Source: Streptomyces coeruleorubidus (lineage in GTDB: Bacteria > Actinomycetota > Actinomycetes > Streptomycetales > Streptomycetaceae). Taken from it: a DNA stretch of 64,000 nt. Below the pieces are notes generated by a model. It saw only the letters and a program-made list of their open reading frames with translations. It did no database searches and had not been told where the DNA came from. The stretch covers positions 7,874,001 to 7,938,000 of the forward strand of contig NZ_CP118527.1 of assembly GCF_028885415.1 (NCBI RefSeq). The letters run 5' to 3'. Shown here piece by piece: positions 42,875 through 63,668 of this stretch. Position 1 is the stretch's first letter; each line of letters begins with the position of its first letter. The position numbers and the translations under genes were made by a program.

Positions 42875-42960
42875 GGCCAACCTTTCGGGGAAGGGATGGC
42901 CCGACGCTAGGAACGTCTCGTTGCCGTGCTGTTTCGCGAGGAGGTCCGCGCAGTAACACT

Positions 42961-42991
42961 GTCTCGTATTGCAACATGGCATCTCGCAATC
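42961..42991. promoter_or_regulatory. Island operator pair A (upstream of acetamidase)
   Basis: TCTCGTATTG (42962-42971) and TCTCGCAATC (42982-42991) are direct repeats exactly 20 bp apart, between the acetamidase start and the P450 stop. A weaker relative GTCTCGTTGC lies at about 42915. The same motif occurs at four other places in the island. Confidence 0.6.
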
Positions 42992-43012
42992 TAGGCGACC
43001 CTCGGCCTGGGA

Positions 43013-45226
43013 TCAGAGGTCGAGGACGAGCCGGTCGCCCTGGCAGCGGCCGACGCAGATCATCATCGAGCGCCCCGCAAGACGTTCCTCTTCGCTGAGC
43101 ACGGAGTCCCGGTGTTCCGGCGCACCGGCGAGCACACGGGTCTCGCAGGCGCCGCAGTACCCCTTCTCGCAGTCGTAGGACAAGCCGCTCACGGCATCGC
43201 GCAGGACCTCGATGAGGCGGCGGTCGGCCGGCACGGTGAGCGTGACTCCCGTGCGCGCGAGCCGCACCTCGAAGGGCCGGTTCGCCGCGGCGTCGAACGC
43301 CGTCTCCAGGTCGTCGCCTGCGGTGAAGCGCTCCAGGTGCAGCCGGTCGGTGAGGCCCAGGCGGGCGCATTCGTGCTCGACGGCCGCCAGCATCGGCGCC
43401 GGCCCGCATGCGTAGACCGCGGTGTCCGCGTCCAGCCCGCCCAGCAGTCGCGGGAGGTCCGGCAGCCCGGCCTCGTCCTGTGGGAGCAGGGTGAGCGCGT
43501 CGCCGGCGACGGCGGCGAGCTCGTCGGCGAACGCCATCGCCCTGCGCGTGCGTCCGCCGTACACGACGGTGAAGGGCGTGCCGCGTCCGGTGGCCTCGCG
43601 GACCATCGCGAGGATCGGTGTGACGCCGATGCCGCCGGCGAGGAACAGGTAGGACGGCGCCGGCGTGAGCGGAAAATGGTTGCGCGGCCCGCGTATCGCG
43701 AACGTGGCTCCCGGGCGGGCCAGTTCGTGGAGTTCCACCGACCCGCCCCGGCCCTGTGGCTCGCGCAGGACGCCGATGCGCCACGTCGTGGCGTCGGCGG
43801 GGTCACCGCACAGCGAGTACTGACGCAGCCGGCCCGAGGGCAGACGCAGCTCGACGTGCGCGCCGGGCCGCCACGCGGGGAGTTCGGCTCCGTCCGGCAG
43901 GCCGAGGCCGACGGCGACGACGCCCTCCGCCGCGGCGTGCACCGCGGTCACCCGCAGCGGGGTGGGCGTGCTCAGCGCGCGGACCGTTCCTGCCGACGCG
44001 GTCGCCCGGGGGCCGGGCGTGAAGACCGCCGGGACCGCGTCCCAGCCGGACTGGTTGCCGCGCGTCGGGTAGGGCACGAGCCCCTCCTCGATCACCCGGT
44101 AGTCGGGCAGCCGGGTCAGGACCTGCGTCATCATCGCGCGGAACATGGCTCGGGCGAGGTGCGCGCCGGCACACCGGTGCGAGCCGATCCCGAAGCTGAG
44201 GTGGCGACTGGCGTCGCGGTCCAGCCGTACCCGCTCGGGGTCGGGGAACACGGCGGGATCGTGGTTCGCGGCGACCCACGGGATCAGCACCCGGTCGCCC
44301 GTGCGCATCGGGCAGCCACCGACCTCGACGTCCTCGGTGACCGTGCGGGCCATCGACTGCGACGGGGCGAAGGCGCGGAGGAACTCCTCGGTCGCGGTGT
44401 CCAGCAGATCCAGGGAGTCGATCAGTCTCTGCCGCTGCTCGGGGTGGCGGGCGAGGTGGACGAGCGTCGATCCGGTCAGGGAGGTGGTGGTGTCGACGCC
44501 GCCGGCGATGAGCAGGCCGATCACCGACACCAGCTCGTCCTCGCCGAACTCGCTGCCGTCGCCGCGCCGGCCGGCCACCAGGGTGCTGACCGCGTCGGCC
44601 CGTGGAGCGGAGCGGCGCTCGGCGATCAGCTCGCGGATACGCCGGTCCATGTAGGCCAGTCCGGCGGCCCCGCGCACGGCGCGCTCGCTGCCGGCCGGCG
44701 CGGCGAAGATGTCGTGGATCGGCCCGGCCAGCTTCGCCCAGTCCTCCTCGGGGAAACCGAGCCAGTCCAGGGTGACCGCGGCCGGCAGCGGGTTGGTGAG
44801 GTCGCGGACGAAGTCGCAGGAGCCGAGCTCGATGAAGTCGTCGACGACGCGGGCGGCGTGGCGCTCGATCATGGGTACCAGTCGCTCGACCGCCTCCGGG
44901 GTCAGCAGCGGGTTGATCAGTTGCCGGTACTCGGCCGAACGCGGCGGGTCGAGCTCGATCGGGTACTGCTCCAGCCCCGGTCCTTTGGGGATGACGATGC
45001 CGACCCCCTGCCCGCCGTGGTCGCTGCGGGCCGAGGAGAACGTCGCGTCGTCGCGGGCGATACGGGCCACGTCGGCGTACCGCGTCGTGTAGTGGAAGCC
45101 GCCATGGGCGGCGGAGCGGCCTACCGGGCAGGTCTCGCGGAAGCGCGCGTAGTAGGCGACCGGATCGGCGTTGGCCTCGTCGGAATGGTGGTCGAAGTCG
45201 CTGTCGAAGGCGATGTCGGCGGACAT
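43013..45226 (-). CDS. Self-sufficient cytochrome P450-phthalate dioxygenase reductase fusion (CYP116B-like)
   Basis: A 737-residue single-chain monooxygenase. Residues 1-405 are a P450: I-helix AGGVDTTT (241-248), ExxR in EEFLR, and haem ligand Cys352 in FGIGSHRCAGAHLAR. Residues of about 420-737 are a phthalate-family reductase: FMN motif RQYSL (468-472), NAD-binding GGIGVTPI (531-538) and CGP (608-610), and a C-terminal [2Fe-2S] centre with Cys686, Cys691, Cys694 and Cys724. This order is that of class VII P450s such as P450RhF, which take electrons from NAD(P)H without partners. Substrate unknown; hydroxylation or O/N-dealkylation are typical. Lies between adh and acetamidase genes. Confidence 0.93.
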   Translation of the reverse strand: MSADIAFDSDFDHHSDEANADPVAYYARFRETCPVGRSAAHGGFHYTTRYADVARIARDDATFSSARSDHGGQGVGIVIPKGPGLEQYPIELDPPRSAEYRQLINPLLTPEAVERLVPMIERHAARVVDDFIELGSCDFVRDLTNPLPAAVTLDWLGFPEEDWAKLAGPIHDIFAAPAGSERAVRGAAGLAYMDRRIRELIAERRSAPRADAVSTLVAGRRGDGSEFGEDELVSVIGLLIAGGVDTTTSLTGSTLVHLARHPEQRQRLIDSLDLLDTATEEFLRAFAPSQSMARTVTEDVEVGGCPMRTGDRVLIPWVAANHDPAVFPDPERVRLDRDASRHLSFGIGSHRCAGAHLARAMFRAMMTQVLTRLPDYRVIEEGLVPYPTRGNQSGWDAVPAVFTPGPRATASAGTVRALSTPTPLRVTAVHAAAEGVVAVGLGLPDGAELPAWRPGAHVELRLPSGRLRQYSLCGDPADATTWRIGVLREPQGRGGSVELHELARPGATFAIRGPRNHFPLTPAPSYLFLAGGIGVTPILAMVREATGRGTPFTVVYGGRTRRAMAFADELAAVAGDALTLLPQDEAGLPDLPRLLGGLDADTAVYACGPAPMLAAVEHECARLGLTDRLHLERFTAGDDLETAFDAAANRPFEVRLARTGVTLTVPADRRLIEVLRDAVSGLSYDCEKGYCGACETRVLAGAPEHRDSVLSEEERLAGRSMMICVGRCQGDRLVLDL

Positions 45227-45367
45227 GGTGGGCACGCTCCACGTGCTCGGACCTGTGCGCGGTGTTGTCCGGCCGCGCCACCGGAAGTCTGCTGCCTCAT
45301 CGGCGTCGGTCACCCTAAGGTGCCGCCGCCGCGGGTGACAACGTCTCGTGGACGGAGCTGCCGGTGC

Positions 45368-46450
45368 TCAGAAGGTCAGCACGGCTTTGCCGACCGAGCC
45401 GGACCGGACGGCCGCGACGGCCTCGTTGATCTGCTCGAACGGGAAGTAGGTGATCATCTTCTCGACCGGGAACCGGCCCTTGGCGTTGAGTTCGAGCAGC
45501 TTCGGCAGGAACAGCTGCGGCAGGCTGGACCCGGCGATGATGCCGGTGACGGTGCGCCCGTTGAGGATGCTGCGCCACTCGAAGCTCATCGACTCGCTGG
45601 GGCCGATGCCGATGACACCGGCGCGGCCGAGCGGCCCGAGAGCCTCCACCGCGGTGCGCAGGACGTCCTCGCGCCCGGTCGTGTCGATCACGAAGTCGAA
45701 GCCCTCGGGGACGAGGGCCGCCAGCTGCTCGGCGACCGCCCCGGCCGAGGAGTCGACGGTGTGCGTCGCTCCGAAGCCGCGGGCCGCCTCCAGCTTGGCC
45801 GGGTTCACGTCGACGGCGGCCACGACCTCGCAGCCGCTCAGCGAGGCGGCGATGACCGCGGCCACGCCGACTGCCCCTGCCCCGAAGACCGCGATCGACG
45901 AGCCGGGGCGCGGCTGGAGGACGTTGAGCACGCCGCCGGCCCCGGTCTGGAAGCCGCAGCCGAAGGGCCCGGCCCGCAGCAGGTCCAGTGACGGGTCGAT
46001 CTTCACGACCGCCCGCTCGGGCGCGACGACGTGACTGGCGAACGACGACTGCCCGAGGAAGTGGGCGTTGACCTCCCGCCCCTCGTGGGTCACCGCGGTG
46101 GACCCGTCGGGCCGGCGCCCGGAGAAGTTCACCGCGTCGAAGTCGCGGCAGTAGGCGGGCGAACCGGTGCGGCACAGCGTGCACGTGCCGCACGACGTGA
46201 AGGACATGGCGACGTGGTCGCCCGGGCGTACGGAGGTGACGTGGGCGCCGGCCTTCTCGACGACGCCCGCCCCTTCGTGCCCGAGCAGCGCGGGCGTGGG
46301 GAAGAAACCGGCGAACTCGAGGTCGGTACCGCAGATGCCGACGCCCGCGACACGGACGAGCACCTCGTCCGGGCGGGGCTCGTCGAGGTCCACCTCCGTC
46401 AGGACGAACGGTTGTCCGGGGTGCTCCAGCAGAGCGGCGGTGGCACGCAC
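45368..46450 (-). CDS. Zinc-dependent aryl/benzyl-type alcohol dehydrogenase
   Basis: A 360-residue NAD-dependent medium-chain dehydrogenase. Catalytic zinc ligands lie in GVGICGTDLEFAG and LLGHEGAGVVE; four structural-zinc cysteines lie in SCGTCTLCRTGSPAYC; the third catalytic-zinc ligand is in FGCGFQTGAGGVLNV, a pattern of the benzyl/aryl alcohol dehydrogenase subgroup. The Rossmann motif is AVFGAGAVGVAAVIAA. GTG 46450 follows GGAGG. Divergent from an aldehyde dehydrogenase, so the pair could oxidise alcohol to acid through an aldehyde. Confidence 0.92.
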   Translation of the reverse strand: MRATAALLEHPGQPFVLTEVDLDEPRPDEVLVRVAGVGICGTDLEFAGFFPTPALLGHEGAGVVEKAGAHVTSVRPGDHVAMSFTSCGTCTLCRTGSPAYCRDFDAVNFSGRRPDGSTAVTHEGREVNAHFLGQSSFASHVVAPERAVVKIDPSLDLLRAGPFGCGFQTGAGGVLNVLQPRPGSSIAVFGAGAVGVAAVIAASLSGCEVVAAVDVNPAKLEAARGFGATHTVDSSAGAVAEQLAALVPEGFDFVIDTTGREDVLRTAVEALGPLGRAGVIGIGPSESMSFEWRSILNGRTVTGIIAGSSLPQLFLPKLLELNAKGRFPVEKMITYFPFEQINEAVAAVRSGSVGKAVLTF

Positions 46451-46458
46451 AGGGCCTC

Positions 46459-46493
46459 CTCGTTACCTCACATAGCGAGACCGCATATTGACA
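46459..46493. promoter_or_regulatory. Island operator B and divergent adh/aldehyde dehydrogenase promoter
   Basis: CTCACATAGCGAG (46467-46479) is an imperfect 13-bp palindrome of the island motif, with a partial copy CTCGTTAC just before it. A perfect -35 TTGACA is at 46488-46493, 36 bp before the rightward ATG; the -10 is poor (CAAGGT). Confidence 0.55.
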
Positions 46494-46523
46494 TGCGCGA
46501 CAGGGTCGGTCAAGGTTCGCCCT

Positions 46524-47972
46524 ATGGCGGCTGTTGACTTTCCTTCTTCCCAGCACTTCATCGACGGCGAGTGGGTCGCGGCCCGCGACGGCGGCACGCT
46601 GGACGTCCTCGATCCGGCCACCCGGCAGGTGATCACCCAGGTGGCCCGGGCGGGCGGCGCCGATGTCGACAACGCGGTCGCCGCGGCGCGCCGCGCGTTC
46701 CCCGACTGGGCGGCGACCAACCCCAGCGAGCGCGGGGCGCTGATCCGGCGCTGGGCCGACCTGATCATCACCGAGGTCGAGGCGCTCGCGGCCGTCGAGG
46801 CCCAGGACGTGGGCAAGCCACTGTCCGGCGGCCGGACGAACATCTACATCGCCCACGGCATCATCGACTACTTCGCCGGCGCGGCCGACAAGCTCACCGG
46901 AGTCACGCTGCCCACCCGCAGCCCCGACTACCTGGGCTACACGGTTCCCGAGCCGTACGGCGTGTGCGCCGTCGTCATCCCGTGGAACGTTCCCGCCGTG
47001 CTCACCGCCGCGAACGTCGCGCCGGCGCTCGCCGCGGGCAACACGGTCGTCCTCAAGCCGTCCGAGATCGCGCCGCTGGCGCCGTTCGCACTCGCCGAAC
47101 TCGCCCGCCGCGCCGGCTTCCCGCCGGGGGTGGTCAACGTCGTCGCGGGCCTCGGCCCGGAGGCGGGCGTGGCGCTCACCTCGCACCCGGACGTCGACCA
47201 CATCAGCTTCGTCGGCTCCACCGCCACCGGGCGGGCGATCATGGCGGCCGCCGCACAGAACCTCGTCCCGGTGAAGCTGGAACTCGGCGGCAAGTCGCCG
47301 AACGTGCTCTTCGCCGACGCCGATCTCGACACGGCGATCCCGGCGATCGTCGCCTCGATCACCGAGAACGCGGGGCAGAACTGCTACGCCGGTTCCCGGC
47401 TGCTCGTTCAGGCCTCGGTGCACGACGAGGTCGTGGAGCGGGTCGCCGCCGCCATGGCCGCCGTCAAGACCGGGCCCTGGGAAGCCGACCTGGACATGGG
47501 TCCGCTGGTCAGTGCCGCGCAGTTCGCCCGCGTCAGCGGCTTCCTCAAGGACGCACGGCGCGAGGGCGCGCGGCTGGTCACCGGTGGCGCACCCACCGGC
47601 GACGGGTGGTTCGTCCGGCCGACCGTCTACGACCGGGTGGACGCGGACATGCGCGTCGCCCGCGAGGAGATCTTCGGCCCGGTCCTCGCCGTACAGTCCT
47701 TCCGCGACACCGCCGAGGCGACCGAGCAGATGAACGCCACCGACTTCGGCCTGCTGGCCTGCATCTGGACCAACGACGTCTCCCGGGCCCTGCGGCTGGC
47801 GAAGGACGTCCGCTCCGGGCAGGTGGCGGTCAACCAGTTCCACGACGCCGGAGTGATCGGCTTCCCGTTCAACATGCAGAAGGACAGCGGCTTCAGCCGG
47901 GGCGGCGGATACACGGCGCTGCGCGAATACACCCAGGAGAAGGGCGTGGCCATCCGGCTGCTGGCCCGCTGA
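46524..47972 (+). CDS. NAD(P)-dependent aldehyde dehydrogenase
   Basis: A 482-residue enzyme oxidising an aldehyde to the acid. Family motifs: VIPWNVPAVLTAANVAPALA, the cofactor loop SFVGSTATGRAI, the general-base Glu in ELGGKSPNVLFADAD, the catalytic Cys in ENAGQNCYAGSRLLVQ, and EIFGPVLAVQSF. Closest in feel to betaine/phenylacetaldehyde-type enzymes; substrate not determinable. AAGG precedes the ATG. Followed after 11 bp by a PucR-type regulator gene on the same transcript. Confidence 0.94.
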   Translation: MAAVDFPSSQHFIDGEWVAARDGGTLDVLDPATRQVITQVARAGGADVDNAVAAARRAFPDWAATNPSERGALIRRWADLIITEVEALAAVEAQDVGKPLSGGRTNIYIAHGIIDYFAGAADKLTGVTLPTRSPDYLGYTVPEPYGVCAVVIPWNVPAVLTAANVAPALAAGNTVVLKPSEIAPLAPFALAELARRAGFPPGVVNVVAGLGPEAGVALTSHPDVDHISFVGSTATGRAIMAAAAQNLVPVKLELGGKSPNVLFADADLDTAIPAIVASITENAGQNCYAGSRLLVQASVHDEVVERVAAAMAAVKTGPWEADLDMGPLVSAAQFARVSGFLKDARREGARLVTGGAPTGDGWFVRPTVYDRVDADMRVAREEIFGPVLAVQSFRDTAEATEQMNATDFGLLACIWTNDVSRALRLAKDVRSGQVAVNQFHDAGVIGFPFNMQKDSGFSRGGGYTALREYTQEKGVAIRLLAR

Positions 47973-47983
47973 GACAGGACACC

Positions 47984-49183
47984 ATGGGTACCACCGTCGG
48001 AGCGTGGCCGGGGCCGGCCCGGGAAGGACCTGGGCCGGACGCCGAGCCCGCCGTGCTGGAGCGGGAACTGGCCGAGGCCGTGCTCGCCGGCGCCGAGTGC
48101 CCGGACGTGCTCCGCGCGCTCCGGCGGGCGAGCGGCCGGCATGTGCGGCTGCTGTCCGCCGAAGGCGTGCCGCTTGCGGCCACGGACGGCGGTGCGGGAG
48201 TGCCGGTTGCCGTGGCGGACGGCGTGCTCGCCGACCTGGCCGGACCGGTGGTCGACACGCTCGACGGGCTGCGGGCCACGGCGCTGCCCGTACGTGCGGG
48301 GACGACGGTGGCCGGTGTGCTGCTGACCATGGGTCCCGATGACCCGCGCGTGCGGGCGCTGGCCCGTGCCGCCGTCACCGCGCTGCTCATCGACGCCGTG
48401 CGCGCCGGGGACGACTCGGCCGAGGTCCCGGCGCGGCACACACCGGCCGACGTCGTCGCCGCGCTGCGGTCCGGGACGGTGAGCCGCTCGGTGTACGCGG
48501 CGGCCGCAGGACTGGGGATCGATCCGCAGCGACCGCCGGCCGGTGCCGTGCTGCACTACACCGGCTCCCGCCCGCGCGCCTGGTCCACCGCCCTCTCCTG
48601 GCTGGAGCACCCGGTGCAGCAGGAGGGGCGCACGGCGTGGACGGTGGCGCCGGACGAGGCCGTGCTCGTCCGCCTGCAAAGCCGCCTGCGCCTCATGACC
48701 GGCGACGAGTCCACTGACCACGTCGTCGCGGTGAGTGGCTCCCACCCCGACTCGCTCAACGGCCTGGCCCGTTCCTTCGCCGAGGCCGAAAGGCTGCTCG
48801 GCCTGGCCCGGGCCCGGCACGTCACGCTGCTCACCTTCGAGAGCTGTGGGGTCGTCCAGGTACTGTTGCCCCTCCCACGCGCGCGGCTCGAGGCGTACGC
48901 CGAGACGCACCTCGGGCCGATCCGGCAGCGACCGGAGCTGATGGCGACTCTGCGTGCCTGGCTGGCCGAGAGGGGCAGCCGGCAGAGCGTCTCCGAACTA
49001 CTCCATCTGCACCGCAACTCGGTGGGCTACCGGGTGGGTCAGATCAAGAACCTCCTCGGCACGGACCCCCTGCTTCCCGCCGCCTCGGCGGAGCTGCATC
49101 TGGCGCTCACGGCCCTGGACCTGCTCGCCGCCGACGACCGGCAGGTGCGCGGCGACGACGAGCCGGTGTCGGCCGGACGCTGA
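47984..49183 (+). CDS. PucR-type transcriptional regulator
   Basis: A 399-residue regulator. The N-terminal about 150 residues form an alpha/beta sensor (GRHVRLLSAEGVPLAATDGG, LRATALPVRAGTTVAGVLL). The middle is a GGDEF-like CdaR/PucR domain (VAVSGSHPDSLNGLARSFAE with AERLLGLAR). The C-terminal HTH_30 domain LRAWLAERGSRQSVSELLHL plus HRNSVGYRVGQIKNLLG is diagnostic. PucR regulators often sense catabolic substrates. Likely controls part of this island; co-transcribed with the aldehyde dehydrogenase gene. Confidence 0.9.
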   Translation: MGTTVGAWPGPAREGPGPDAEPAVLERELAEAVLAGAECPDVLRALRRASGRHVRLLSAEGVPLAATDGGAGVPVAVADGVLADLAGPVVDTLDGLRATALPVRAGTTVAGVLLTMGPDDPRVRALARAAVTALLIDAVRAGDDSAEVPARHTPADVVAALRSGTVSRSVYAAAAGLGIDPQRPPAGAVLHYTGSRPRAWSTALSWLEHPVQQEGRTAWTVAPDEAVLVRLQSRLRLMTGDESTDHVVAVSGSHPDSLNGLARSFAEAERLLGLARARHVTLLTFESCGVVQVLLPLPRARLEAYAETHLGPIRQRPELMATLRAWLAERGSRQSVSELLHLHRNSVGYRVGQIKNLLGTDPLLPAASAELHLALTALDLLAADDRQVRGDDEPVSAGR

Positions 49184-49323: not shown

Positions 49324-49387
49324 TTGACAGCACCGGTCGGCGGAGGCAGAGTACCTCGCAATACGTTCCACCGCCTCGCAATGCGAG
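49324..49387 (+). promoter_or_regulatory. Promoter with island operator pair C (upstream of quinone reductase-like gene)
   Basis: -35 TTGACA (49324-49329) and -10-like CAGAGT (49347-49352) with a 17-bp spacer are followed by CTCGCAATACG (49355-49365) and the near-perfect palindrome CTCGCAATGCGAG (49375-49387), exactly 20 bp apart. Downstream position suits a repressor. Confidence 0.65.
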
Positions 49388-49412
49388 ACGGAGAGGGTGA
49401 GGAGGCCGCCCG

Positions 49413-50444
49413 GTGCGAGCCATGGTGCAGACCGATTTCGGCGGTCCCGAGGCCGTGTTCCTGCAGGACGTCCCGGAGCCGGTGTGCGGACCGCGCGACG
49501 TCGTCGTAGAGATCGCCTACTGCGGGCTGAACCGCCTGGACCTGATGCAACTCAAAGGTCCTGGCCTGATACCGGGCTTCCGCCTTCCCCACGTGCCGGG
49601 CATGGACTTCGCCGGAACGGTGGTGGCGACCGGATCCGCGGTCGGCTCGGTCGTCCCCGGCGACCGGGTCATCGCCGATCCCACCCAGGGCTGCGGCAGC
49701 TGCCCGCGCTGCGCGGTGGGCGACCGTGCGTACTGCGTCAGACCGCGCATCCTCGGCGGCAACGCCCCCGGCGCGCTGGCCGAATACGTCCTGGCGTCCG
49801 CGGAATCGGTCGTCCAGGTGCCCGAGTCCCTGCCGCTCGCCGCGGCCGTCACCCTGCCCACCGCCTTCGCGACGGCATGGCACGCGGTGCACACCGTCGG
49901 GTCACTCGCCGCCGGTGAGACCCTCGTCGTGCACGCGGGCGCCAGCGCCGTCAGCCTGGCGGCCATCGCACTGGCCAAGCGGGCCGGTGCCTCGGTCGTC
50001 GCCCTGGCCGGCAGCGACGCGAAGCGGGCCGCGGCCCGCGCGGCAGGCGCGGACCTGGTGCTGCCCAACCAGGACCCGGACTCGGTGAAAACGGTGTCGG
50101 TCTTCACCGACGGCGCGGGGGCGGACCTGGTCCTGGACCACGTGGGCACCGACACCTGGCGTACCTCGCTGGACTGCCTCGGCATCCGGGGGCGTCTGCT
50201 GCTGATGGGCAACACCAGCGGCGACCAGGTGTCGTTCTCGCTCCAAGAGGTCTTCCACCGCGGACTGAAACTGCTGGGTACCGGCGGCTACAGCTCGGCC
50301 GACTTCGTCGCCGCCACGTCGGCCTGCTTCGCCGACGGCCTGCACCTGCCCACCGCCGCCCGGTTCCCGCTGGAGGATCTGGCCGATGCCTGGGACGTGC
50401 TCGCCGCCCGCGACACCATCGGCAAGGTCGTGATCGAGCCATGA
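49413..50444 (+). CDS. Zinc-type/quinone oxidoreductase-like medium-chain reductase
   Basis: A 343-residue NADPH-dependent MDR enzyme. It keeps the structural-zinc loop cysteines (GCGSCPRCAVGDRAYC) but has YCGLNRLDLMQLKG where zinc alcohol dehydrogenases carry the catalytic Cys, so it is of the quinone/enoyl reductase type. HVPGMDFAGTVVATGS and the cofactor loop VVHAGASAVSLAAIALA support this. GTG 49413 follows GAGGAGG. The first gene of the long rightward operon; overlaps the amidohydrolase gene by ATGA. Confidence 0.88.
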   Translation: MRAMVQTDFGGPEAVFLQDVPEPVCGPRDVVVEIAYCGLNRLDLMQLKGPGLIPGFRLPHVPGMDFAGTVVATGSAVGSVVPGDRVIADPTQGCGSCPRCAVGDRAYCVRPRILGGNAPGALAEYVLASAESVVQVPESLPLAAAVTLPTAFATAWHAVHTVGSLAAGETLVVHAGASAVSLAAIALAKRAGASVVALAGSDAKRAAARAAGADLVLPNQDPDSVKTVSVFTDGAGADLVLDHVGTDTWRTSLDCLGIRGRLLLMGNTSGDQVSFSLQEVFHRGLKLLGTGGYSSADFVAATSACFADGLHLPTAARFPLEDLADAWDVLAARDTIGKVVIEP

Positions 50445-51820
50445 CCGACCTTCTGATCGTGGGCGGCGACGTCGTCACGATGGACTCCGCCCGGCGGGTC
50501 CTCACCCGGGCGACGGTCGCCGTGTCCGGGAACAGCATCGCCGCGCTCGGCACGGCCGAGGATCTGCGCGCCCGCTTCCCGGGTGCGCGGGAGATCGACG
50601 CGTCGGGCTGTGTCGTGATCCCGGGTCTGGTCGACGCCCACCAGCACACGACCGTCGACCCCCTCGTGCGCAGCATGATCCCGGACCACATCGGCTCGCA
50701 GGAGTCGATATTCGACTGGATCGTCCCGCTGCACGCCCACGCCGACGGTGACGACGACGAACTGGCCGCGACCATCACCGCCGTGGAGTGCCTGTCCCGG
50801 GGCATCACCACGGTGCTGGAGCCGGGCACAGTGGCCTACCCGGAACGAGTGGCGGCGGGACTGGGCGCCGCGGGTGTCCGCGCGCGGGTCGGCGGCTGGG
50901 GCTGGGACGCCAAGGACGTGCCGTTCGGCGCGCCCGCCGACGAGGTGCTCGCCCGGCAGGAGGACATCGTCCGGTCCCTGCCGGCCACCGGTCCCATCAC
51001 CGGGTGGGTGACGCTCGTCGGCCATGACCTCGCGAGCGACGAGCTCTTCACCGGAGCGGTGAGCCTGGCCGAGCGGCTCGATGTCCAACTGACCTGGCAC
51101 GTCTCGCCGGGACCCGCCGACATCGAGGCGTACGCGCTGCGCTGCGGGCGCCGGCCGGTGGTCCACTTCCGCGAGCTGGGAGTACTCGGACCGCGCCTGC
51201 TGCTGGGGCACGCCGTGTGGCTCGACGACGCGGAGGTCGACGCGATCCTCGAGACCGGTACCGCGGTCGCCGCCTGCCCCGGGGCATATCTGCGTCTCGC
51301 CCAGGGGTACACACGCGCCTCCCGCCACGCCGAACTGGTGCGGCGGGGCGGCCGGGTCGCACTGGGCTGCGACGCGCACAACGCCGGCGACGCCCCGGAC
51401 GTCCTCCTGGCGGCCTATCTGTTCGCCGGCCTGGAACGCGACCGCGACCTGCCCGACCCGGTCCGTGCCGAGCAGGCGTTCGCCCTCGCGACGATCGACG
51501 GCGCCCGGGCGATCGGTCTCGGCGAACGGATCGGCTCCCTCGAAGTGGGCAAGGCGGCCGACATCGTCGTGCTCGATACCCGCGACCCCGCCTGGATGCC
51601 CCGGGGAGACCTCGCCCGCCAGCTCGTGTGGGGCCATGTGTCGCGCACCGTCCGTGACGTGCTGGTCGACGGCCGCGTGGTCGTCCGCGACCGGCGCCCG
51701 ACCGGCGTCGATCTCGCGGCCCTCGCCGCGGCTGCCGCCGAGCGATCCGCCGCCCTGCTGCGGCGCGCCGGCATCACGCCCCGCTCCGCCTGGCCGGCGG
51801 AGCCGGCGGCCCGCCAGTAA
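50441..51820 (+). CDS. Zinc amidohydrolase (TrzA/SsnA/ATZ type)
   Basis: A 459-residue deaminase/dechlorinase-type amidohydrolase. Metal ligands: HQH in VIPGLVDAHQHTT, His in LTWHVSPGPADIEAY, His in LLLGHAVWLDD and Asp in VALGCDAHNAG. The C-terminal VGKAADIVVLDTRDPAWMP is typical. It would hydrolyse an amino or other group from a cyclic substrate such as a purine-, pyrimidine- or triazine-like ring; substrate unknown. It sits inside the catabolic operon, right before the transporter genes. Confidence 0.9.
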   Translation: MTDLLIVGGDVVTMDSARRVLTRATVAVSGNSIAALGTAEDLRARFPGAREIDASGCVVIPGLVDAHQHTTVDPLVRSMIPDHIGSQESIFDWIVPLHAHADGDDDELAATITAVECLSRGITTVLEPGTVAYPERVAAGLGAAGVRARVGGWGWDAKDVPFGAPADEVLARQEDIVRSLPATGPITGWVTLVGHDLASDELFTGAVSLAERLDVQLTWHVSPGPADIEAYALRCGRRPVVHFRELGVLGPRLLLGHAVWLDDAEVDAILETGTAVAACPGAYLRLAQGYTRASRHAELVRRGGRVALGCDAHNAGDAPDVLLAAYLFAGLERDRDLPDPVRAEQAFALATIDGARAIGLGERIGSLEVGKAADIVVLDTRDPAWMPRGDLARQLVWGHVSRTVRDVLVDGRVVVRDRRPTGVDLAALAAAAAERSAALLRRAGITPRSAWPAEPAARQ

Positions 51821-51832
51821 GGAGACCCGTCG

Positions 51833-53171: not shown

Positions 53172-53200
53172 CGTGCCGATACCGACGAGGAAGATCAGCG

Positions 53201-55935: not shown

Positions 55936-56846
55936 GCGTTCTGGACAGCACCACGACCATCCTCGCGAGCGGTGTCCGGCTGACCGTGCCGCTGGCGTTC
56001 GTCGCCTGCGGTGAGTACCTGGCCGAGCGCGCCGGCACGATGAACATCTCCGTCGAGGCGATGATGCTCGGCGCCGCGTTCACCTCCGTCGCCACCGCCA
56101 GCGCGACCGGCAGCGCCACGACCGGCCTCGCGGTCGGCGTCGTGACCGGACTCGTCATCGGCTTCGTGCACGGCAACCTCTCCCACCGTGCCCAGATCAA
56201 CACCTTCGTCATCGGCCTGGTGCTGAACGCGCTCGTGCTCGGGCTGACGAGCTACCTGATCACGACGGAGCAGTTCGCCTCGCACCAGGTCGGCATGCTG
56301 TCGATCCCGCTGTTGCAGGACATCCCGCTCATCGGCAAGCCGCTGTTCTCCGAACGCTGGCCCGCCTTCCTTCTGATCCTGCTGGTGCCACTCACCTGGT
56401 GGTTGGTGGAGCGCAGCCGCTGGGGCCTGGAACTGCGGGCGGTGGGGGAGAACCCGCAGGCCGCAGACGTCACGGGCATCAAGGTGAACCTGCGGCGCCG
56501 GCAGGCCCTGCTGTGGTGCGGCGCCATGGCCGGTCTCGGCGGCGCCTACCTCGCGGTCGGCGAGGTCGGATCGTTCAACCAGAACATGACCGCCGGGCGC
56601 GGATACATCGTCATCGCCGCGGTGATCTTCGGGGCGTGGCGGCTCGGCCGGACCATGCTCGGCTGCCTGGTCTTCGGCCTCTCCGACGCGATGCGCCTGG
56701 CGCTCCCGGCGCTCGGCGTCACCCTCAACGCCCAACTGCTCGTCGCGGCCCCGTACCTGCTCGCACTGCTCGCGATGCTGCTGTTCACCACCCAGCACCG
56801 GGAACCCGCCGCACTCGGACGGCCCTTCGTGCGCGGGTCGACCTGA
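55932..56846 (+). CDS. ABC transporter permease (BMP/nucleoside type), subunit 2
   Basis: A 304-residue membrane protein with about 8 helices. YLAERAGTMNISVEAMMLG is the hallmark of YufQ-type permeases; ELRAVGENPQAADVTGIKV and GGAYLAVGEVGSFNQNMTAG follow. It is the last gene of the importer; a 98-bp gap follows before the VOC gene. The importer is complete (binding protein, ATPase, two permeases). Confidence 0.95.
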   Translation: MSVLDSTTTILASGVRLTVPLAFVACGEYLAERAGTMNISVEAMMLGAAFTSVATASATGSATTGLAVGVVTGLVIGFVHGNLSHRAQINTFVIGLVLNALVLGLTSYLITTEQFASHQVGMLSIPLLQDIPLIGKPLFSERWPAFLLILLVPLTWWLVERSRWGLELRAVGENPQAADVTGIKVNLRRRQALLWCGAMAGLGGAYLAVGEVGSFNQNMTAGRGYIVIAAVIFGAWRLGRTMLGCLVFGLSDAMRLALPALGVTLNAQLLVAAPYLLALLAMLLFTTQHREPAALGRPFVRGST

Positions 56847-57777: not shown

Positions 57778-57888
57778 CGCCCCCGGCCGGCTGCCCGCGA
57801 CCAGTACCTGAACACCCCGTCCGCCTCTCGTGCGGACGGGGTTCCGGCGTGTCGGCTTCCGGCCTGCGTTTCGCTCTGCATGATGCCG

Positions 57889-57928
57889 TCTCGTATTGCT
57901 TGACAGACTCTGTCTCGCATTGAAAGAT
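57889..57928 (+). promoter_or_regulatory. Promoter with island operator pair D (upstream of FAH-family gene)
   Basis: TCTCGTATTG (57889-57898) abuts a perfect -35 TTGACA (57900-57905); TCTCGCATTG (57913-57922) lies between it and -10-like AAAGAT (57923-57928). The ATG is at 57935, where transcription should begin, so a leaderless message is predicted. Confidence 0.7.
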
Positions 57929-57934
57929 GCCGTC

Positions 57935-58753
57935 ATGCAAGTAGTGACGACACAGGCCGGTCTGGGCCGGATCGAGGACGGGGCTGTCGCCCTGTTGGAC
58001 ACTGCTTTTCCGCACGTCGGCGCGGTCCTCGAACAGGAGGGCTCGTTGCGGTCCCTGGAGTCCTGCGCGGTGCGCCGACGCCTCTCACTGGACGAGGCCA
58101 CGCTCATCGCGCCCCTGGGCCGTCCCCGCGCGGTGTGGGGCGTCGGGCTCAACTACGTGTCGAAGGCGGCCCGGACCGGCCGGGGACTGCCCGAACAGCC
58201 GATCCTGTACCTGGCCGCGTCGTCCGCCGTGCCGGAACCCGGCGCGCGGGTGGTGATCCCGCAGGCCGTGACCGAACCCGACTACGAGGGGGAGATCGCG
58301 GTCGTCGTCGCCCGCCGGCTGCACCAGGCGTCCGAGTCGGAGGTCTGGCCCGCGATCGCCGGCATCACCGCGGCCAACGACATGACGGCGCGTGATGTCA
58401 TGCGCGCCACGGGCACGCCCGCCCTCGCCAAGAGCTACCCGGGTTTCACGCCGCTCGGCCCTTCGCTCCGCACTCCCGACGACCTCGGCGACCGCGACGC
58501 GATCCGCCTACGGACCCGGGTCAACGGTGAACTCCTCCAGGACGACACGAGCGCCGGGATGATCTTCCCGGTCCCCGATCTGCTCAGCAGGCTGTCGTGG
58601 TTCACCGCGCTCGAACCCGGCGACGTCGTCCTCACCGGAACCCCGGCCGGCACCGGCCAGGACCGTGCGTGCTTCCTCGCCGACGGCGACGAGATACGCG
58701 TCGAGGTGGACGGCGTGCTGCCCCTCGTCACCCGCGTGGCGCGTCCCGCGTGA
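57935..58753 (+). CDS. Fumarylacetoacetate hydrolase (FAH) family protein
   Basis: A 272-residue metal-dependent hydrolase/decarboxylase/hydratase of the FAH superfamily. WGVGLNYVSKAARTG is the family signature loop; metal ligands are in YEGEIAVVVARRL (Glu-x-Glu) and ITAANDMTARDVM (Asp), then LGPSLRTPDDLGD and VVLTGTPAGTG. Family members cleave C-C bonds of dioxo acids or act on 2-hydroxy-dienoates, as in ring-cleavage pathways. There is no ribosome-binding site, in line with a leaderless start. First gene of a four-gene set. Confidence 0.9.
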   Translation: MQVVTTQAGLGRIEDGAVALLDTAFPHVGAVLEQEGSLRSLESCAVRRRLSLDEATLIAPLGRPRAVWGVGLNYVSKAARTGRGLPEQPILYLAASSAVPEPGARVVIPQAVTEPDYEGEIAVVVARRLHQASESEVWPAIAGITAANDMTARDVMRATGTPALAKSYPGFTPLGPSLRTPDDLGDRDAIRLRTRVNGELLQDDTSAGMIFPVPDLLSRLSWFTALEPGDVVLTGTPAGTGQDRACFLADGDEIRVEVDGVLPLVTRVARPA

Positions 58754-58827
58754 CGCCTCACCGCGCGACCACCCCGTAGACCAAGCCGGTCAGCCGACCG
58801 TCCCTCACCCCCTGGGAGCCCATAGCG

Positions 58828-59991
58828 ATGTCCAACTCGTCCGAGTCGTCCTACGACCTCGTCCTGGCCGGCGGTACCGTCATCGACCCGGCGTCGGGCA
58901 CCAACGCCCGGCTCGACGTGGCGGTCACCGGTGACCGCATCGCCGCGATAGGGGAGGGGCTGGCGGCCGGCGCGGCCCGCACGATCGACGTCACCGGCTC
59001 CACCGTGCTGCCGGGCCTCGTCGAGGGCCACACCCACATCTTCCAGTACGTCTCCGCCGTCGGCGCCCCGGCCGAGGAGGCCCACCTGCGCCGCGGCGTC
59101 GTCGCGGCGGCCGACGCCGGCACGGCCGGCGCCTCCACCTTCGCGGCCTTCCGCAAGCTGGTGGTCGAGGCGAACCCGCTGCGCATCGTCAACTTCCTCA
59201 ACGTCTCGGTGCTCGGCCTGATCGACTTCCGGTTCGGCGAGCTGCTGAACCCCGACACCCTGGTCCCCGAGGACGCGCTCGCGACCGCCGAGGCCCACCC
59301 CGACATCGTGCGCGGATTCAAGATCCGCCTCTCCGAGGACGTCGTCGGCGAGAACTGGGAGCCGTTGCTGAAGAAGTCCGTGGCGCTGGCCGAACAGGCC
59401 GGTCTCCCGCTGATGCTGCACATCGGCGAGACCGCGGAGCCGCTGCCCGTCGTCCTCGACTACCTGCGCCCCGGCGACATCGTGGCGCACTGCTACACCG
59501 GCAAGCCGCACGGGATCCTAGACGGCGACCGCGTGCAGCCCGCCGTCACCGAGGCCCGGGAGCGCGGCGTGCTGTTCGACTCCGCCCACGGCAAGAGCAA
59601 CCTCAGCTTCGAGGTGGCGCGCCGCGCCATCGCCGACGGATTCCTGCCCGACGTCCTCAGCTCCGACACCAGCGCGCGCAACTGGCGCGGCCCGGTGTTC
59701 GACCTGCTCACCAGCATCTCCAAGCTGGTCGCGCTCGGCGCGCCGCTCGAGGAGTGCATCAGGCGGGCCACCGTCGCGCCGGCCCGGCTGCTCGGGCTCG
59801 ACACCGAGGGCTACGGGCGCCTGGAGGCCGGCGGGCGGGCCGACGTCACGGTCGTCGACTGGACCGACGAGGTCACCCTGCCCGACGCCGCGGGCAACAC
59901 GATCGTCGCGCCGCGCCTGGAACCGACCGTGGTACTGCACGGCGGCACCGAGGTCGACATCGTGCCGTGGCGGGGCCTGCCGTCGGCCTGA
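58828..59991 (+). CDS. Dihydroorotase-like amidohydrolase/deacetylase
   Basis: A 387-residue metallohydrolase of the amidohydrolase superfamily, of the EF0837/amidohydrolase-deacetylase group. Metal ligands: GHTHIFQYVSAVG (HxH), the probable carboxylated Lys in VRGFKIRLSEDV, His in LMLHIGETAEPL, His in DIVAHCYTGKPHG and Asp in VLSSDTSARNW. It would open a cyclic amide or deacylate an intermediate. Follows the FAH gene by 74 bp. Confidence 0.87.
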   Translation: MSNSSESSYDLVLAGGTVIDPASGTNARLDVAVTGDRIAAIGEGLAAGAARTIDVTGSTVLPGLVEGHTHIFQYVSAVGAPAEEAHLRRGVVAAADAGTAGASTFAAFRKLVVEANPLRIVNFLNVSVLGLIDFRFGELLNPDTLVPEDALATAEAHPDIVRGFKIRLSEDVVGENWEPLLKKSVALAEQAGLPLMLHIGETAEPLPVVLDYLRPGDIVAHCYTGKPHGILDGDRVQPAVTEARERGVLFDSAHGKSNLSFEVARRAIADGFLPDVLSSDTSARNWRGPVFDLLTSISKLVALGAPLEECIRRATVAPARLLGLDTEGYGRLEAGGRADVTVVDWTDEVTLPDAAGNTIVAPRLEPTVVLHGGTEVDIVPWRGLPSA

Positions 59992-60022
59992 CACACCCAC
60001 ACATCCCGCCCGGGAGGATCCG

Positions 60023-60796
60023 ATGACCGCTGGTGACGTCCATCTGCTGCGACGCCGGCTGCGTGCGGCCCTGACGGCCGGGGGACCCGCCGTCGGTACG
60101 TTCGTCAAGCTTGCGTCGCCCGACGTGGTGGAACTGGCCGAGGCGGCCGGGTTCGCGTTCGTGGTCGTCGACCTCGAACACTCCACCCTCTCCGAGCGGG
60201 ACGCCGTCGACCTGGTGCGCCACGCGGACGTGTGCGGCCTGCCGGCCCTGGTGCGCGTGCCCGAGGTGGACACCGCCGCCGTCAACCGGCTGCTGGAGGC
60301 CGGGGCGGCGGGAATCCAGCTGTCCATGCTCACTTGCGTTGCCCAGGCCGAGGCACTCGTGGCGGCGACCCGGTTCGCGCCCGCCGGCCGCCGGTCGGTG
60401 AGCCTGGCCAACAGGGCCGCCCGGTTCGGTGCGGTCCCGCCGGCCGGATTCCTGCGAGCCGAGCAGGACGACCCGCCGGTGCTGGTCGGCCAGATCGAGA
60501 CGGCACGGACGGATCCGCTGCCGGATCTCCTCGCCGCTCTCGACGTGTGCTTCGTCGGCAGCACCGACCTCGCGGTCGACCTGGGCCTGCCGGCGGACCC
60601 GGCGGTGCTGCGGGCCGCCGTGGACCGGGTGCGTGACGCCGCCCGTTCCGCCGGGGTGGTGTTCGGCGGCTGGGCGCCGGCCCGGGGCGCCGCGGCCGGC
60701 CTGGGTCTCGGCGACGTCGGCTACCTGGTCGTCGGCTCGGACCTGCAGATGTTGGCGGCCGGCCTGAGAGCGGCCGCCGGAGAGGAAAACCAGTGA
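60023..60796 (+). CDS. HpcH/HpaI family aldolase
   Basis: A 257-residue class II-type aldolase splitting a 2-keto-3-deoxy acid into pyruvate (or oxaloacetate-like) and an aldehyde. AVGTFVKLASPDVVELAEAA is the N-terminal signature with FVVVDLEHSTLSERDAVDL; metal ligands are in GQIETARTDP (Glu) and CFVGSTDLAVDLG (Asp). It overlaps the cupin gene (GTGA). A carbon-chain cleavage step follows ring opening in such pathways. Confidence 0.92.
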   Translation: MTAGDVHLLRRRLRAALTAGGPAVGTFVKLASPDVVELAEAAGFAFVVVDLEHSTLSERDAVDLVRHADVCGLPALVRVPEVDTAAVNRLLEAGAAGIQLSMLTCVAQAEALVAATRFAPAGRRSVSLANRAARFGAVPPAGFLRAEQDDPPVLVGQIETARTDPLPDLLAALDVCFVGSTDLAVDLGLPADPAVLRAAVDRVRDAARSAGVVFGGWAPARGAAAGLGLGDVGYLVVGSDLQMLAAGLRAAAGEENQ

Positions 60797-61149
60797 GCAC
60801 ACGCAACGCAGCGCTGTTCAGCACCGTCGTCAACTGGGACGAGCTGCCGGTGACCCAGGTGCGGCCGGGGGTCCGCCGTCGCGTCTACGCGACGGACGAG
60901 GTGATGATCTGCCACCACGAGCTGGAGGCCGGCATGACGCTCAACCCGCACCGGCACGAGGACTTCGACCAGCTGGTCCATATCGCCGAGGGGCGTGCGA
61001 ACTACTACGTGGACGGTGTCGCGCACGACATGCGCGCCGGATCGTTCCTGCTCGTTCCCCGCGGCAGCGAGCACTACGTGGAGCCGACGGAGACCCCCTG
61101 CGTGAACATCGATTTCTTCGTCCCGCCGCGGGCCGACCTGCTGCCCTGA
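60793..61149 (+). CDS. Cupin-domain protein
   Basis: A 118-residue single-domain cupin. Metal-binding histidines are in GMTLNPHRHEDFDQLVHIAEG (motif 1, HxH) and VPRGSEHYVEP (motif 2). It may be an isomerase, lyase or dioxygenase; no substrate can be inferred. Last gene of the rightward set and closely coupled to the aldolase gene; a strong bidirectional terminator follows. Confidence 0.88.
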   Translation: MSTRNAALFSTVVNWDELPVTQVRPGVRRRVYATDEVMICHHELEAGMTLNPHRHEDFDQLVHIAEGRANYYVDGVAHDMRAGSFLLVPRGSEHYVEPTETPCVNIDFFVPPRADLLP

Positions 61150-61175
61150 CCGACGTACGGGCTTGCCGCGTACGC

Positions 61176-61210
61176 GTCCGGCCCCCACGGGGATCCCGTG
61201 GGGGCCGGAC
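61176..61210. terminator. Strong bidirectional terminator between cupin and IclR genes
   Basis: GTCCGGCCCCCACGG and CCGTGGGGGCCGGAC form a perfect 15-bp stem with a 5-nt loop, between the convergent cupin and iclR genes. Confidence 0.85.
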
Positions 61211-61233
61211 GAACGTGCGGACACCGCGACTGC

Positions 61234-62058
61234 TCAGCCGCCGTTGGGTCCGTCGTCGGAGGTGCCCAGCCGCTGCGACAACGCGCGGGCGGTCTCCAGC
61301 AGTGCCTGGGCCATCGGCGACTTGACGTCGTCGGAGACGGTCGCCGTCGTGCCGACGATCGCCAGCGTTCCGCTGATCGTGTCGCCCTCGAAGATCGGTG
61401 CCGCGACCGTGCGGACCCCGTTGACGGTGGGGGAGTTGACCGACAGACCGTGCTGCCGGATGGCTTCGAGCTCCTCGGCGAGCTCCGACTTGCGGACCGC
61501 GCGCGGCAGCGTCGGTACCTGCTCCGGGGGCAGGAACGCGAGGAAGACGCGTCCCTGCGCCGAGGACGTGAGGTTCAGGCGCGAGCCGACCCGGACGCTG
61601 ATGCGCACCATGTGGTCGGTGTTGTCCACCGAGCGCACCACGGTCGCCGACTCGCCGTCCCAGACCGACAGCACGATCGTCTCGTCGATGCGCCTGACCA
61701 GTTCCTCCATGTACGGCTCGGCGGCGGCGACGATCGGCAGGCCGGCACGGGCGGCCGTGGCGAGCGTGAGCACCTGGGGGCCGAGGGAGTACAGCGACGT
61801 ACGTTCGTCGTACCGCAGCAGGTTCGCCGCCCGCAGTGCCTTCGTGTAGCGGTGCGCGGTCGCCTTGCTCGCCCCGAGACGCGCGGTGATCTCATTGAGG
61901 CTCATGTGCGGCTTGCCGACCGTGAACGAGCCGAGGATCAGCGCCGCACGCTGCACCGTCTGGATGGTCGGCGCTGTCCTGTCCGGGCCGTCCTGCTCGC
62001 CGGTGCCGCGCTGCGCCTTGGTGGGCATGGATTCCTCGCTCCTGTCCTGGTCGGTCAT
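61234..62058 (-). CDS. IclR family transcriptional regulator
   Basis: A 274-residue regulator. The winged HTH is in TIQTVQRAALILGSFTVGKP, then LNEITARLGASKATAHRYTK; the GAF-like IclR effector domain has LTLATAARAGLPIVAAAEPY, MVRISVRVGSRLNLTSSAQG and the C-terminal SGTLAIVGTTATVSDDVKSP. IclR members often repress catabolic genes until a pathway intermediate binds, and use short palindromes. It is the leading candidate for binding the CTCGYAWTG sites in this island. Convergent with the cupin gene. Confidence 0.94.
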   Translation of the reverse strand: MTDQDRSEESMPTKAQRGTGEQDGPDRTAPTIQTVQRAALILGSFTVGKPHMSLNEITARLGASKATAHRYTKALRAANLLRYDERTSLYSLGPQVLTLATAARAGLPIVAAAEPYMEELVRRIDETIVLSVWDGESATVVRSVDNTDHMVRISVRVGSRLNLTSSAQGRVFLAFLPPEQVPTLPRAVRKSELAEELEAIRQHGLSVNSPTVNGVRTVAAPIFEGDTISGTLAIVGTTATVSDDVKSPMAQALLETARALSQRLGTSDDGPNGG

Positions 62059-62153
62059 AAGACATTAAATGAAACGCCGTATCGAATAAAGTAATGGTAA
62101 GGCGGAGTGCAACCGGGCGTGAAGGGTTTCGAGGTTCTCACCCGTGCGCAGCT

Positions 62154-63152
62154 TCACGCATCGGAGGAGTGCCCCGGCGTGATCGAGCGTGCCGGGTCGA
62201 GCAGGGCGGCGATGTGGTTGACGGCCAGGGCCGCTTCGCCGAAGCCGATCGAGATGAGGCTGACCTTGCCGTCGTAGTCGGCGATGTCGCCGGCCGCGAA
62301 GACGCGCTCCCGACTGGTGCGCATCGTGGGGCCGACGAGGATGCGCCGACGGCGCAGCTCCAGCCCCCACTGCTCGATCGGGCCGAGATCGGCGATGAAG
62401 CCGAGCGCGGCCACGACCGACTGGGCGGGCAGGGTGATCCGGTCGCCGTCGGAGCTCGCGACCACGACCTCCGACATCGGCCCGTCACCGGAGATCTTCT
62501 CGACCTCGTAGGGCGTCAGGACCCGCACGGAGGACGCGTGCACCTGCTCGACGGTGCGTTCGTGGGCCCGGAACCGCGTACGCCGGTGCACCAGCGTCAC
62601 CGACGAGGCGATCGGCTCCAGTGACAGCGCCCAGTCGAGCGCGGAGTCCCCGCCGCCGACCACGACGACGTCCTGTCCGGCGAGCTCGTTCAACCGCGGT
62701 ACGAAGTACCGCAGCCCCCGGCCCAGGTACTCGGATCCCACGGGGAGCTCGCGGGGGATGAAGTTGCCGATCCCGCCGCAGACGAGCACCGCGCCCGCGG
62801 TGACCCGTGCACCGGCGTCGGTGGTCGCGACGATGCCCTCGCCCGTGTCGTCCAGCCCGGTCACCCCGTGCCCGAGCAGGTAGGCGGGGTTCCACCGCCC
62901 GGCCTGCTCGGCCAGCCGGTCCACCAGGTCCTGACCGCGGACGGCGGGGAAGCCGGCCACGTCGTAGATGGACTTCTCGGGGTACAGCGCGGCGATCTGG
63001 CCGCCCACTTCGGGCAGCGCGTCGGCGACCGCGACGCTCAGGCCGCGGAAGCCGGCGTAGTACGCGCCGTACAACCCCGTGGGGCCGGCGCCGATGATCA
63101 GCAGGTCGACGCAGACCTCGGGGCCGGTGCCCGTGGCCGGGAGGCCGGTCAC
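62154..63152 (-). CDS. Ferredoxin-NADP+ reductase, thioredoxin-reductase type
   Basis: A 332-residue FAD enzyme of the TrxR-like FNR group. FAD motif: CVDLLIIGAGPTGLYGAYYA; NADPH motif: DVVVVGGGDSALDWALSLEP; C-terminal FAD motif: RVFAAGDIADYDGKVSLISI. There is no CxxC redox pair, which separates it from true thioredoxin reductases. The GTG start overlaps the ferredoxin stop, so the two form an electron-transfer chain, probably for the Rieske oxygenase. Confidence 0.93.
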   Translation of the reverse strand: MTGLPATGTGPEVCVDLLIIGAGPTGLYGAYYAGFRGLSVAVADALPEVGGQIAALYPEKSIYDVAGFPAVRGQDLVDRLAEQAGRWNPAYLLGHGVTGLDDTGEGIVATTDAGARVTAGAVLVCGGIGNFIPRELPVGSEYLGRGLRYFVPRLNELAGQDVVVVGGGDSALDWALSLEPIASSVTLVHRRTRFRAHERTVEQVHASSVRVLTPYEVEKISGDGPMSEVVVASSDGDRITLPAQSVVAALGFIADLGPIEQWGLELRRRRILVGPTMRTSRERVFAAGDIADYDGKVSLISIGFGEAALAVNHIAALLDPARSITPGHSSDA

Positions 63153-63463
63153 GCGCCCACCTCCGGGTGGTCGTGGCCGGCCTTGCCGACCTTGCGTGCC
63201 CCGCCGGGCGAGCCGAGCGGTTCGATGCCGAGGGTGAAGAACTCGGCGTTGATGCGCTCGAACTGCTTGCTCTCCTCCGGCAGGTCCTCGTGGTGGAAGA
63301 TCGAGATCTGCGGGCAGACGGGTTCGCAGCGCCCGCACTCGACACATTCGTCGGGCTGGATGTAGAGCATCCGGTCGCCCTCGTAGATGCAGTCGGCCGG
63401 GCACTCCTCCATGCACGACTTGTCCATGACGTCGATGCAGGCCTGCGTGATGACGTACGGCAC
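63149..63463 (-). CDS. [3Fe-4S][4Fe-4S] ferredoxin (FdxA-like)
   Basis: A 104-residue seven-iron-type ferredoxin: VITQACIDVMDKSCMEECPA with the first cluster cysteines, DCIYEG, and the second motif DECVECGRCEPVCPQISIF. The helical tail (EESKQFERINAEFFTLG) is typical of actinobacterial FdxA. I prefer the GTG at 63463 (VPYVIT) because relatives begin at this residue; an ATG at 63496 would add eleven residues and run into the operator. First gene of a two-gene transcript with the reductase. Confidence 0.9.
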   Translation of the reverse strand: MPYVITQACIDVMDKSCMEECPADCIYEGDRMLYIQPDECVECGRCEPVCPQISIFHHEDLPEESKQFERINAEFFTLGIEPLGSPGGARKVGKAGHDHPEVGA

Positions 63464-63492
63464 GAGCTTGTTGCCCTTCACACGGTCGCACA

Positions 63493-63615
63493 GCATGCGA
63501 GACGGTGTATTTCAATGTGGAACAGGATGATGGCGGTGCCCGGCCGGGGTGTCAACCGCGAGACGAATGCTTGACACCTTGAGAATGCTGGGGGACTCTG
63601 ATGCGACATACGAGA
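63493..63615. promoter_or_regulatory. Divergent promoter with island operators E and F
   Basis: On the minus strand TCTCGCATGC (63493-63502) lies near the ferredoxin start, and TCTCGTATGT (63606-63615) is just downstream of the rightward promoter, whose -35 TTGACA is at 63571-63576 and -10-like GACTCT at 63594-63599. CGAGACGAATGC (63559-63570) is a third, weaker relative. Confidence 0.55.
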
Positions 63616-63668
63616 TGGCGTCTCACAGCACGCCACTCGGGTCGGGACTTGTGAGAGGCAAACTCCCC

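Follow-up and report, generated by a model that had tools for sequence, protein, structure and literature searches.

Regulators of the IclR family such as PcaR, PcaU and PobR exert local control over aromatic catabolism, PcaU and PobR acting as activators or in both roles. The passages on site structure in Suvorova and Gelfand (2021; PMC8222616) describe group 1 sites (GKTYCRYW3-4RYGRAMC), inverted group 2 sites and three-box sites, place the centres of tandem IclR sites 18–22 nt apart, and state that the idea of alternative dimerization still needs experimental validation. Here a comparable candidate element is described in a 64-kb stretch of Streptomyces coeruleorubidus DNA (contig NZ_CP118527.1, positions 7,874,001 to 7,938,000; hereafter the window), where copies of a short motif, CTCGYAWTG, are found at the promoters of a catabolic gene island encoding both an IclR-family and a PucR-type regulator. 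Judged from sequence, the motif is probably the operator of the island's IclR protein, which would bind boxes alternating in direction every 10 bp and most likely repress the island operons until a pathway ligand arrives.

Nine copies of the motif had been listed in an earlier note, and all nine are present in the window at the stated positions, the minus-strand copies being TCTCGCATG at 63494–63502 and TCTCGTATG at 63607–63615. Exact CTCGYAWTG matches are present only at 42963, 49375 (both strands), 57890 and 57914, the remaining copies being variants; all of these exact matches lie within the island. The copy at 49375 is a perfect 13-bp palindrome, CTCGCAATGCGAG (49375–49387). Perfect TTGACA boxes, read by eye, do stand beside several copies (46488–46493, 49324–49329, 57900–57905 and 63571–63576), and the claimed 20-bp spacing holds for the pairs at 42962/42982 and 49355/49375, with 24 bp separating the pair at 57889/57913. 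The copies had all been described as intergenic, but that at 63493 falls among the candidate start codons of the ferredoxin gene.

The unit proposed earlier, a 13-bp palindrome occurring in pairs, keeps its spacing but not its status as an isolated palindrome: an array of three boxes (A, B and C) alternating in direction every 10 bp, CGAGATG-N-CRTCTCGYA-W-TRCGAGA, describes the sites better, and the 20-bp pairs correspond to the step between same-direction boxes of one array read two turns apart. Box distances of 5 to 44 were counted in 12 operator regions, seven from this genome and five from three distant genomes, and compared with 2000 mononucleotide shuffles. Only three distances were seen at least three times, namely CGAGA to TCTCG at 10 (five), TCTCG to CGAGA at 10 (three) and same-direction boxes at 20 (four), and these counts were reached in 0, 2 and 2 of the 2000 shuffles, respectively. 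When a 27-mer consensus (CGAGATGNCRTCTCGYAWTRCGAGATG, scored out of 26) was applied, the FmdA promoter scored 22, the FAH promoter 20, and the aldehyde dehydrogenase (ALDH), second alcohol dehydrogenase (ADH2) and Rieske promoters 19 each, with the sites from the distant genomes at 22, 21, 21, 20 and 19. None of 2000 background windows reached 18 and eight reached 17, and all 11 matches of at least 18/26 in the window lie in five island promoters.

Searching genome contigs with the IclR protein returned 17 loci, 13 of them from Streptomyces at 89–97%. The protein was matched in 3 of 297 genomes of a family sample (E 1e-40) and 3 of 394 of a class sample (E 1e-50), both including the present genome, which marks the island as rare. 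Of the 13 Streptomyces genomes, 12 have ALDH and the P450 fusion. Orthologous promoters were aligned for FmdA (8), ADH2 (11) and Rieske/ferredoxin (10), among others, some collected stretches ending at contig ends. Both TCTCG and the longer TCTCGYAW were retained in every orthologue at the ADH2 (11/11), FAH (12/12) and Rieske/ferredoxin (10/10) promoters, although TCTCG of the first FAH element is degenerate in 7/12. At the FmdA promoter TCTCG was found in 8/8 and TCTCGYAW in 6/8, ahead of the small frame preceding the TauD-like gene in 7/7 and 3/7, and at the ALDH promoter in 11/12 and 4/12 (TCTCGYA likewise 4/12). Across 463 kb of collected orthologue DNA from the 13 Streptomyces, a figure that includes overlaps, 67 of 87 TCTCGYAW sites belong to six promoter groups that together make up only 12.4 kb. 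The regions upstream of the BMP importer and of P450R were also considered as regulon heads and set aside, TCTCGYA occurring in 0/11 and 1/7 orthologues and TCTCG in 1/11 and 6/7, respectively.

The earlier note had proposed a matrix scan of the window, and this was carried out with a 9-mer matrix for which, at each held-out promoter, training drew solely on orthologue sites from the remaining promoters, window sites being unused and Rieske and ferredoxin held out together. Seven of the nine copies were recovered among the top eight window matches: FAH at ranks 1 and 3, FmdA at 2 and 5, one ADH2 copy at 4, Rieske at 6 and ferredoxin at 8. Eight orthologue rows for the second FmdA copy, several of them misplaced by the ungapped anchor, were omitted from training, and a misplaced ALDH row (L093) was retained.

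IclR proteins 52–64% identical to that of the island accompany the element in three distant genomes, G141 (56%), from another genus of the family, and G504 (63%) and G399 (two copies, 58% and 52%), from other families of the class. In all three the element is present upstream of the Rieske gene, with further sites upstream of AHyd1 in G141 and of a reductase in G399; taken together, these sites score 19–22/26. The helix-turn-helix region is 98–100% identical and its recognition helix 100% identical in the 13 Streptomyces orthologues; in G141, G504 and the first G399 copy, the only one of the two covered by this figure, the recognition helix is 85–92% identical and the C-domain 54–61%. A 37% homologue in G085 has a recognition helix only 38% identical, and other island genes were not found in the 20 kb collected there, in which two TCTCGYA words are present. 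Within this set of sequences the recognition helix is conserved together with the motif.

The IclR protein would bind the boxes at the −35 region or between the core promoter and start codon of the island operons, presumably as a dimer or tetramer, and would repress transcription until a pathway ligand occupies its C-terminal domain, release by ligand being expected from the family. With promoters read by eye, the boxes at FAH and ALDH abut or overlap the −35 region, those of ADH2, the second FAH element and Rieske lie between core promoter and start codon, and that of the ferredoxin gene lies in its start region, positions that suggest the geometry of a repressor. It is unlikely that the IclR protein instead activates, or does both: the ALDH operator covers the −35 region and the bases immediately before it, and PcaU is among the IclR proteins with three-box sites in the passages cited above (PMC8222616), but the ADH2, second FAH, Rieske and ferredoxin sites are placed where a repressor would sit. 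Within repression by IclR, one protein may pair the boxes of the same 10-bp array differently from promoter to promoter, realizing both dimer modes and grading repression accordingly at each promoter, a tentative idea that we lean against. The pairings would seem to be A with B (as in group 2) at the Rieske and TauD-like promoters, B with C (as in group 1) at ADH2, and A with C around a weak centre at the formamidase promoter.

Binding and activation by the PucR-type protein, the alternative named earlier, is very improbable. Its gene follows ALDH within the island and is retained at 78–84% in 9 of the 13 Streptomyces genomes, but neither G301 nor G303 gave a match at E 1e-30, and G302 and G305 have only 43–45% homologues on other contigs. 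G301, G302 and G305 nevertheless keep the ALDH and FAH sites, and two of the three, where the promoters are seen, keep those of ADH2 and Rieske/ferredoxin; a PucR regulon, in which an orthologue should occur wherever the sites do, was rejected on this basis. The collected stretches of G141, G399 and G504 likewise carry the motif with no PucR match of at least 38% at E 1e-20, and sites that lie over the core promoter or beyond it are ill suited to an activator. Promoter-specific conservation, held-out recovery, distant co-occurrence, the recognition helix, the IclR-like layout and the PucR-less genomes all point to IclR as the likelier binder, in agreement with the earlier suggestion. Just as improbable is a regulator encoded elsewhere with IclR as a bystander, since of the island's two regulators it is IclR that accompanies the motif in Streptomyces islands and the three distant genomes, with a recognition helix that tracks the motif and a motif architecture resembling IclR sites.

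Several observations weigh against IclR acting through this element. At 17/26, 6 of 12 window matches fall outside promoters, and 87 kb of other DNA from this genome, picked for its resemblance to the motif, contains seven matches of 18–19 in five loci. Because the same sites supplied both the 27-mer consensus and the spacing test, these are partly circular, so that the scores describe rather than prove, and the species compared are not independent. The ferredoxin site scores only 16/26 and the TauD-like promoter and the region upstream of iclR 17/26; several promoters have a weak box C, and several show two or fewer strong boxes, the FmdA and G141 Rieske sites both reaching 22/26. Among the first 16 held-out matches, neither the ALDH site nor one of the ADH2 copies appeared. 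G303 (L032) keeps IclR at 90–91% with most of the island lost, ALDH and P450 not being found and other genes truncated. Finally, the outer bases of the four named group 1 subgroups (TGT, GTT, WTT and NGT) are not found here, where TC precedes TCG.

The genome scan that had been proposed, over 9,411,092 bases in one contig, gave a divided answer: the tight TCTCGYAWTG is present in 12 copies, four of them in the island, against three for the reversed control pattern, but the loose 13-mer CTCGYAWTGCRAG shows no genome-wide enrichment when up to two mismatches are allowed (164+152, compared with 343+342 for the control), leaving only the tight motif or a longer element informative. The 17-mer spanning boxes A and B has four matches in the genome at up to one mismatch, three of them in the island, and 397 at up to three mismatches against 229 for the control, indicating that weak forms are mostly background. 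Two of the eight off-island exact TCTCGYAWTG copies (L081 and L082, position 1501, approximately 5 kb apart in the genome) share another palindrome, GTGTCTCGTAATGAGACAC, perhaps the site of another regulator. Another of the eight, at L073 (position 1501), is a palindrome, ATACGAGAC-C-GTCTCGTAT, that has the same boxes at 8 bp instead of 10 and is possibly a relative or the site of another regulator.

Table 1. Candidate operators and genes of the island (window positions, except where L025, a stretch running past the window end, is given)
Feature	Position	Strand	Score or basis
Three-box operator before FmdA-like gene	42960..42986	-	22/26; perfect boxes A and C, weak box B
Operator between divergent ADH1 and ALDH	46464..46490	-	19/26; adjoins ALDH −35
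Double operator just downstream of ADH2 core promoter	49352..49390	.	19/26 and 18/26; includes palindrome 49375–49387
Two elements flanking/overlapping FAH promoter	57879..57929	+	20/26 and 19/26
Single strong box, ferredoxin start region	63494..63503	-	TCTCGCAT in 10/10 orthologues; three-box score 16/26
Rieske operon operator, A-B pair, between core promoter and coding region	63599..63637	+	19/26; TCTCGTATG in 10/10 orthologues
Possible autoregulatory site before iclR, weak	62070..62096	+	17/26
Further A-B operator candidate outside the window	L025:6476-6502 (genome C1 about 7943476-7943502)		Upstream of conserved 46-amino-acid frame and TauD-like gene
FmdA_AmdA acetamidase/formamidase-family enzyme	41732..42874	-	FmdA_AmdA 3e-26
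P450-reductase-ferredoxin fusion, behind ADH1/ALDH operator	43013..45313	-	Pfam
Zinc alcohol dehydrogenase ADH1	45368..46450	-	Pfam
Aldehyde dehydrogenase ALDH	46524..47972	+	Aldedh 1.1e-158 (frame 46488-47972); start taken as ATG behind promoter
PucR-type regulator	47984..49183	+	HTH_30
ADH2 and deaminase-like amidohydrolase	49413..51820	+	Pfam, NCBIfam
BMP-type ABC importer, four genes	52083..56846	+	Pfam; own operator not found
FAH hydrolase, amidohydrolase, HpcH/HpaI aldolase, cupin	57935..61149	+	Pfam
IclR-family regulator	61234..62058	-	Pfam IclR_C 6.7e-26, HTH_IclR 5e-10
FAD reductase and FdxA-type ferredoxin, upstream of iclR, same strand	62154..63496	-	Pyr_redox_2; FdxA_Actino 149 bits vs cut-off 125
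Rieske oxygenase alpha subunit, runs past window	63669..64000	+	Rieske, Ring_hydroxyl_A

The candidate site upstream of iclR has a matrix score of 10.1. None of 3000 background windows scores as high (maximum 9.9), but when the stretch itself was shuffled 2000 times, 107 shuffles did; the block is similar by eye in orthologues, and autoregulation is put forward as a weak candidate only. The IclR protein itself belongs to the family, its N-terminal HTH_IclR and C-terminal IclR_C domains both scoring above the curated cut-off. The ferredoxin start (63463–63496, minus strand) is probably a GTG codon further in, because ATG at 63496 is ATT in 5/10 orthologues. The Rieske start is placed at ATG 63669 on account of a one-base length change just upstream in L033. 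The leader that separates this ATG from the Rieske operator (63615–63668) is strikingly conserved, CACTCGGGTCGGGACTTGTGAGAGGC being present in most orthologues, and with TCTCACA facing TGTGAGA it is possibly a second operator or an RNA element.

The earlier view of the island as one local regulon is favoured by these data, but not its extent of about 22 kb, since the island runs past the window end. In L025 the Rieske alpha and beta subunits are found together with Dabb-VOC, M20-like and TauD-like proteins, and the frame preceding the TauD-like gene (L025:6284–6424, minus strand) is 76–96% conserved across seven Streptomyces. From gene spacing, the operator-headed units are likely FmdA, ADH1-P450, ALDH-PucR, ADH2-amidohydrolase (perhaps continuing into the importer), FAH-amidohydrolase-aldolase-cupin, ferredoxin-reductase-IclR and Rieske. 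VOC and SnoaL proteins are also encoded, ADH1 and ADH2 are two zinc dehydrogenases, and the two best PDB matches of the P450 fusion (6laa and 6kbh) span nearly its full length. The P450, Rieske and ring-cleavage-like genes suggest an aromatic substrate, and the gene set as a whole suggests that this compound, possibly nitrogen-containing, is imported, oxidized by P450 and Rieske enzymes, cleaved at its ring and hydrolysed. A substrate name was sought from NCBIfam and PDB and not obtained: among the 25 best matches per protein, only the ferredoxin of 20 proteins passes its curated cut-off, and the PDB matches pointed to no clear substrate. No literature on the island was found, and the tables of PMC8222616, which lay beyond that search, may already list its orthologous group.

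Some of the 20 TCTCGYAW sites outside the six promoter groups resemble further operators in DNA found in only some islands. DNA intervening between FAH and SnoaL in some islands, at L026:14252–15487 and 16417, L029:17448 and L038:16615, has three-box-like sites of its own (19–21/26) and has possibly been recruited into the regulon. In L026 such a site precedes a gene, inserted beside FAH, that by eye only resembles a sugar-binding protein, and on this ground some strains may degrade a glycoside.

Compared with the sites described in the cited passages of PMC8222616, TCGYAWTRCGA here agrees with the group 1 core, YCRY-W3-RYGR, and the inverted CGAGATG-N-CRTCTCG pair has the layout of group 2. 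The full core palindrome YCRYW3RYGR is found at ADH2 (CTCGCAATGCGAG, in the window and 11 orthologues), most other sites having only one good half, and the centre of the Rieske site of G141, TCTCGTAGTGCGAGA, is G. Unlike group 1 as given there, the outer bases are TCTCG and not GTTCG or TGTTC; by its sequence the site is IclR-like and not a member of a named group 1 subgroup. As in the three-box sites of those passages, alternating boxes combine both layouts with spacing of about 20 nt (here 10, 10 and 20), differences being the box step of 10 bp and the apparent use of different box pairs by different promoters. The best PDB sequence match of the IclR protein is remote, a KdgR-type IclR (5y6i; residues 39–274, 8.8e-25), and the KdgR site in PMC8222616 differs in sequence from the island operator, as does the pathway. 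The best-scoring NCBIfam model is pcaR_pcaU, at 97 bits against a cut-off of 284.75, placing the protein outside that subfamily. PcaU is an activator, as opposed to the repressor proposed here. Three-box sites are common to both, as far as the cited passages describe those of PcaU (PMC8222616). A candidate regulator and operator are available for a rare, conserved catabolic island, whose substrate could be revealed by induction assays, and a promoter set seemingly using different box pairs of one array offers a natural test bed for alternative dimerization. Taken together, these results describe a probable new IclR regulon, local to the island and familiar in type, whose three-part candidate site is unusually clear; they do not point to a novel type of system.

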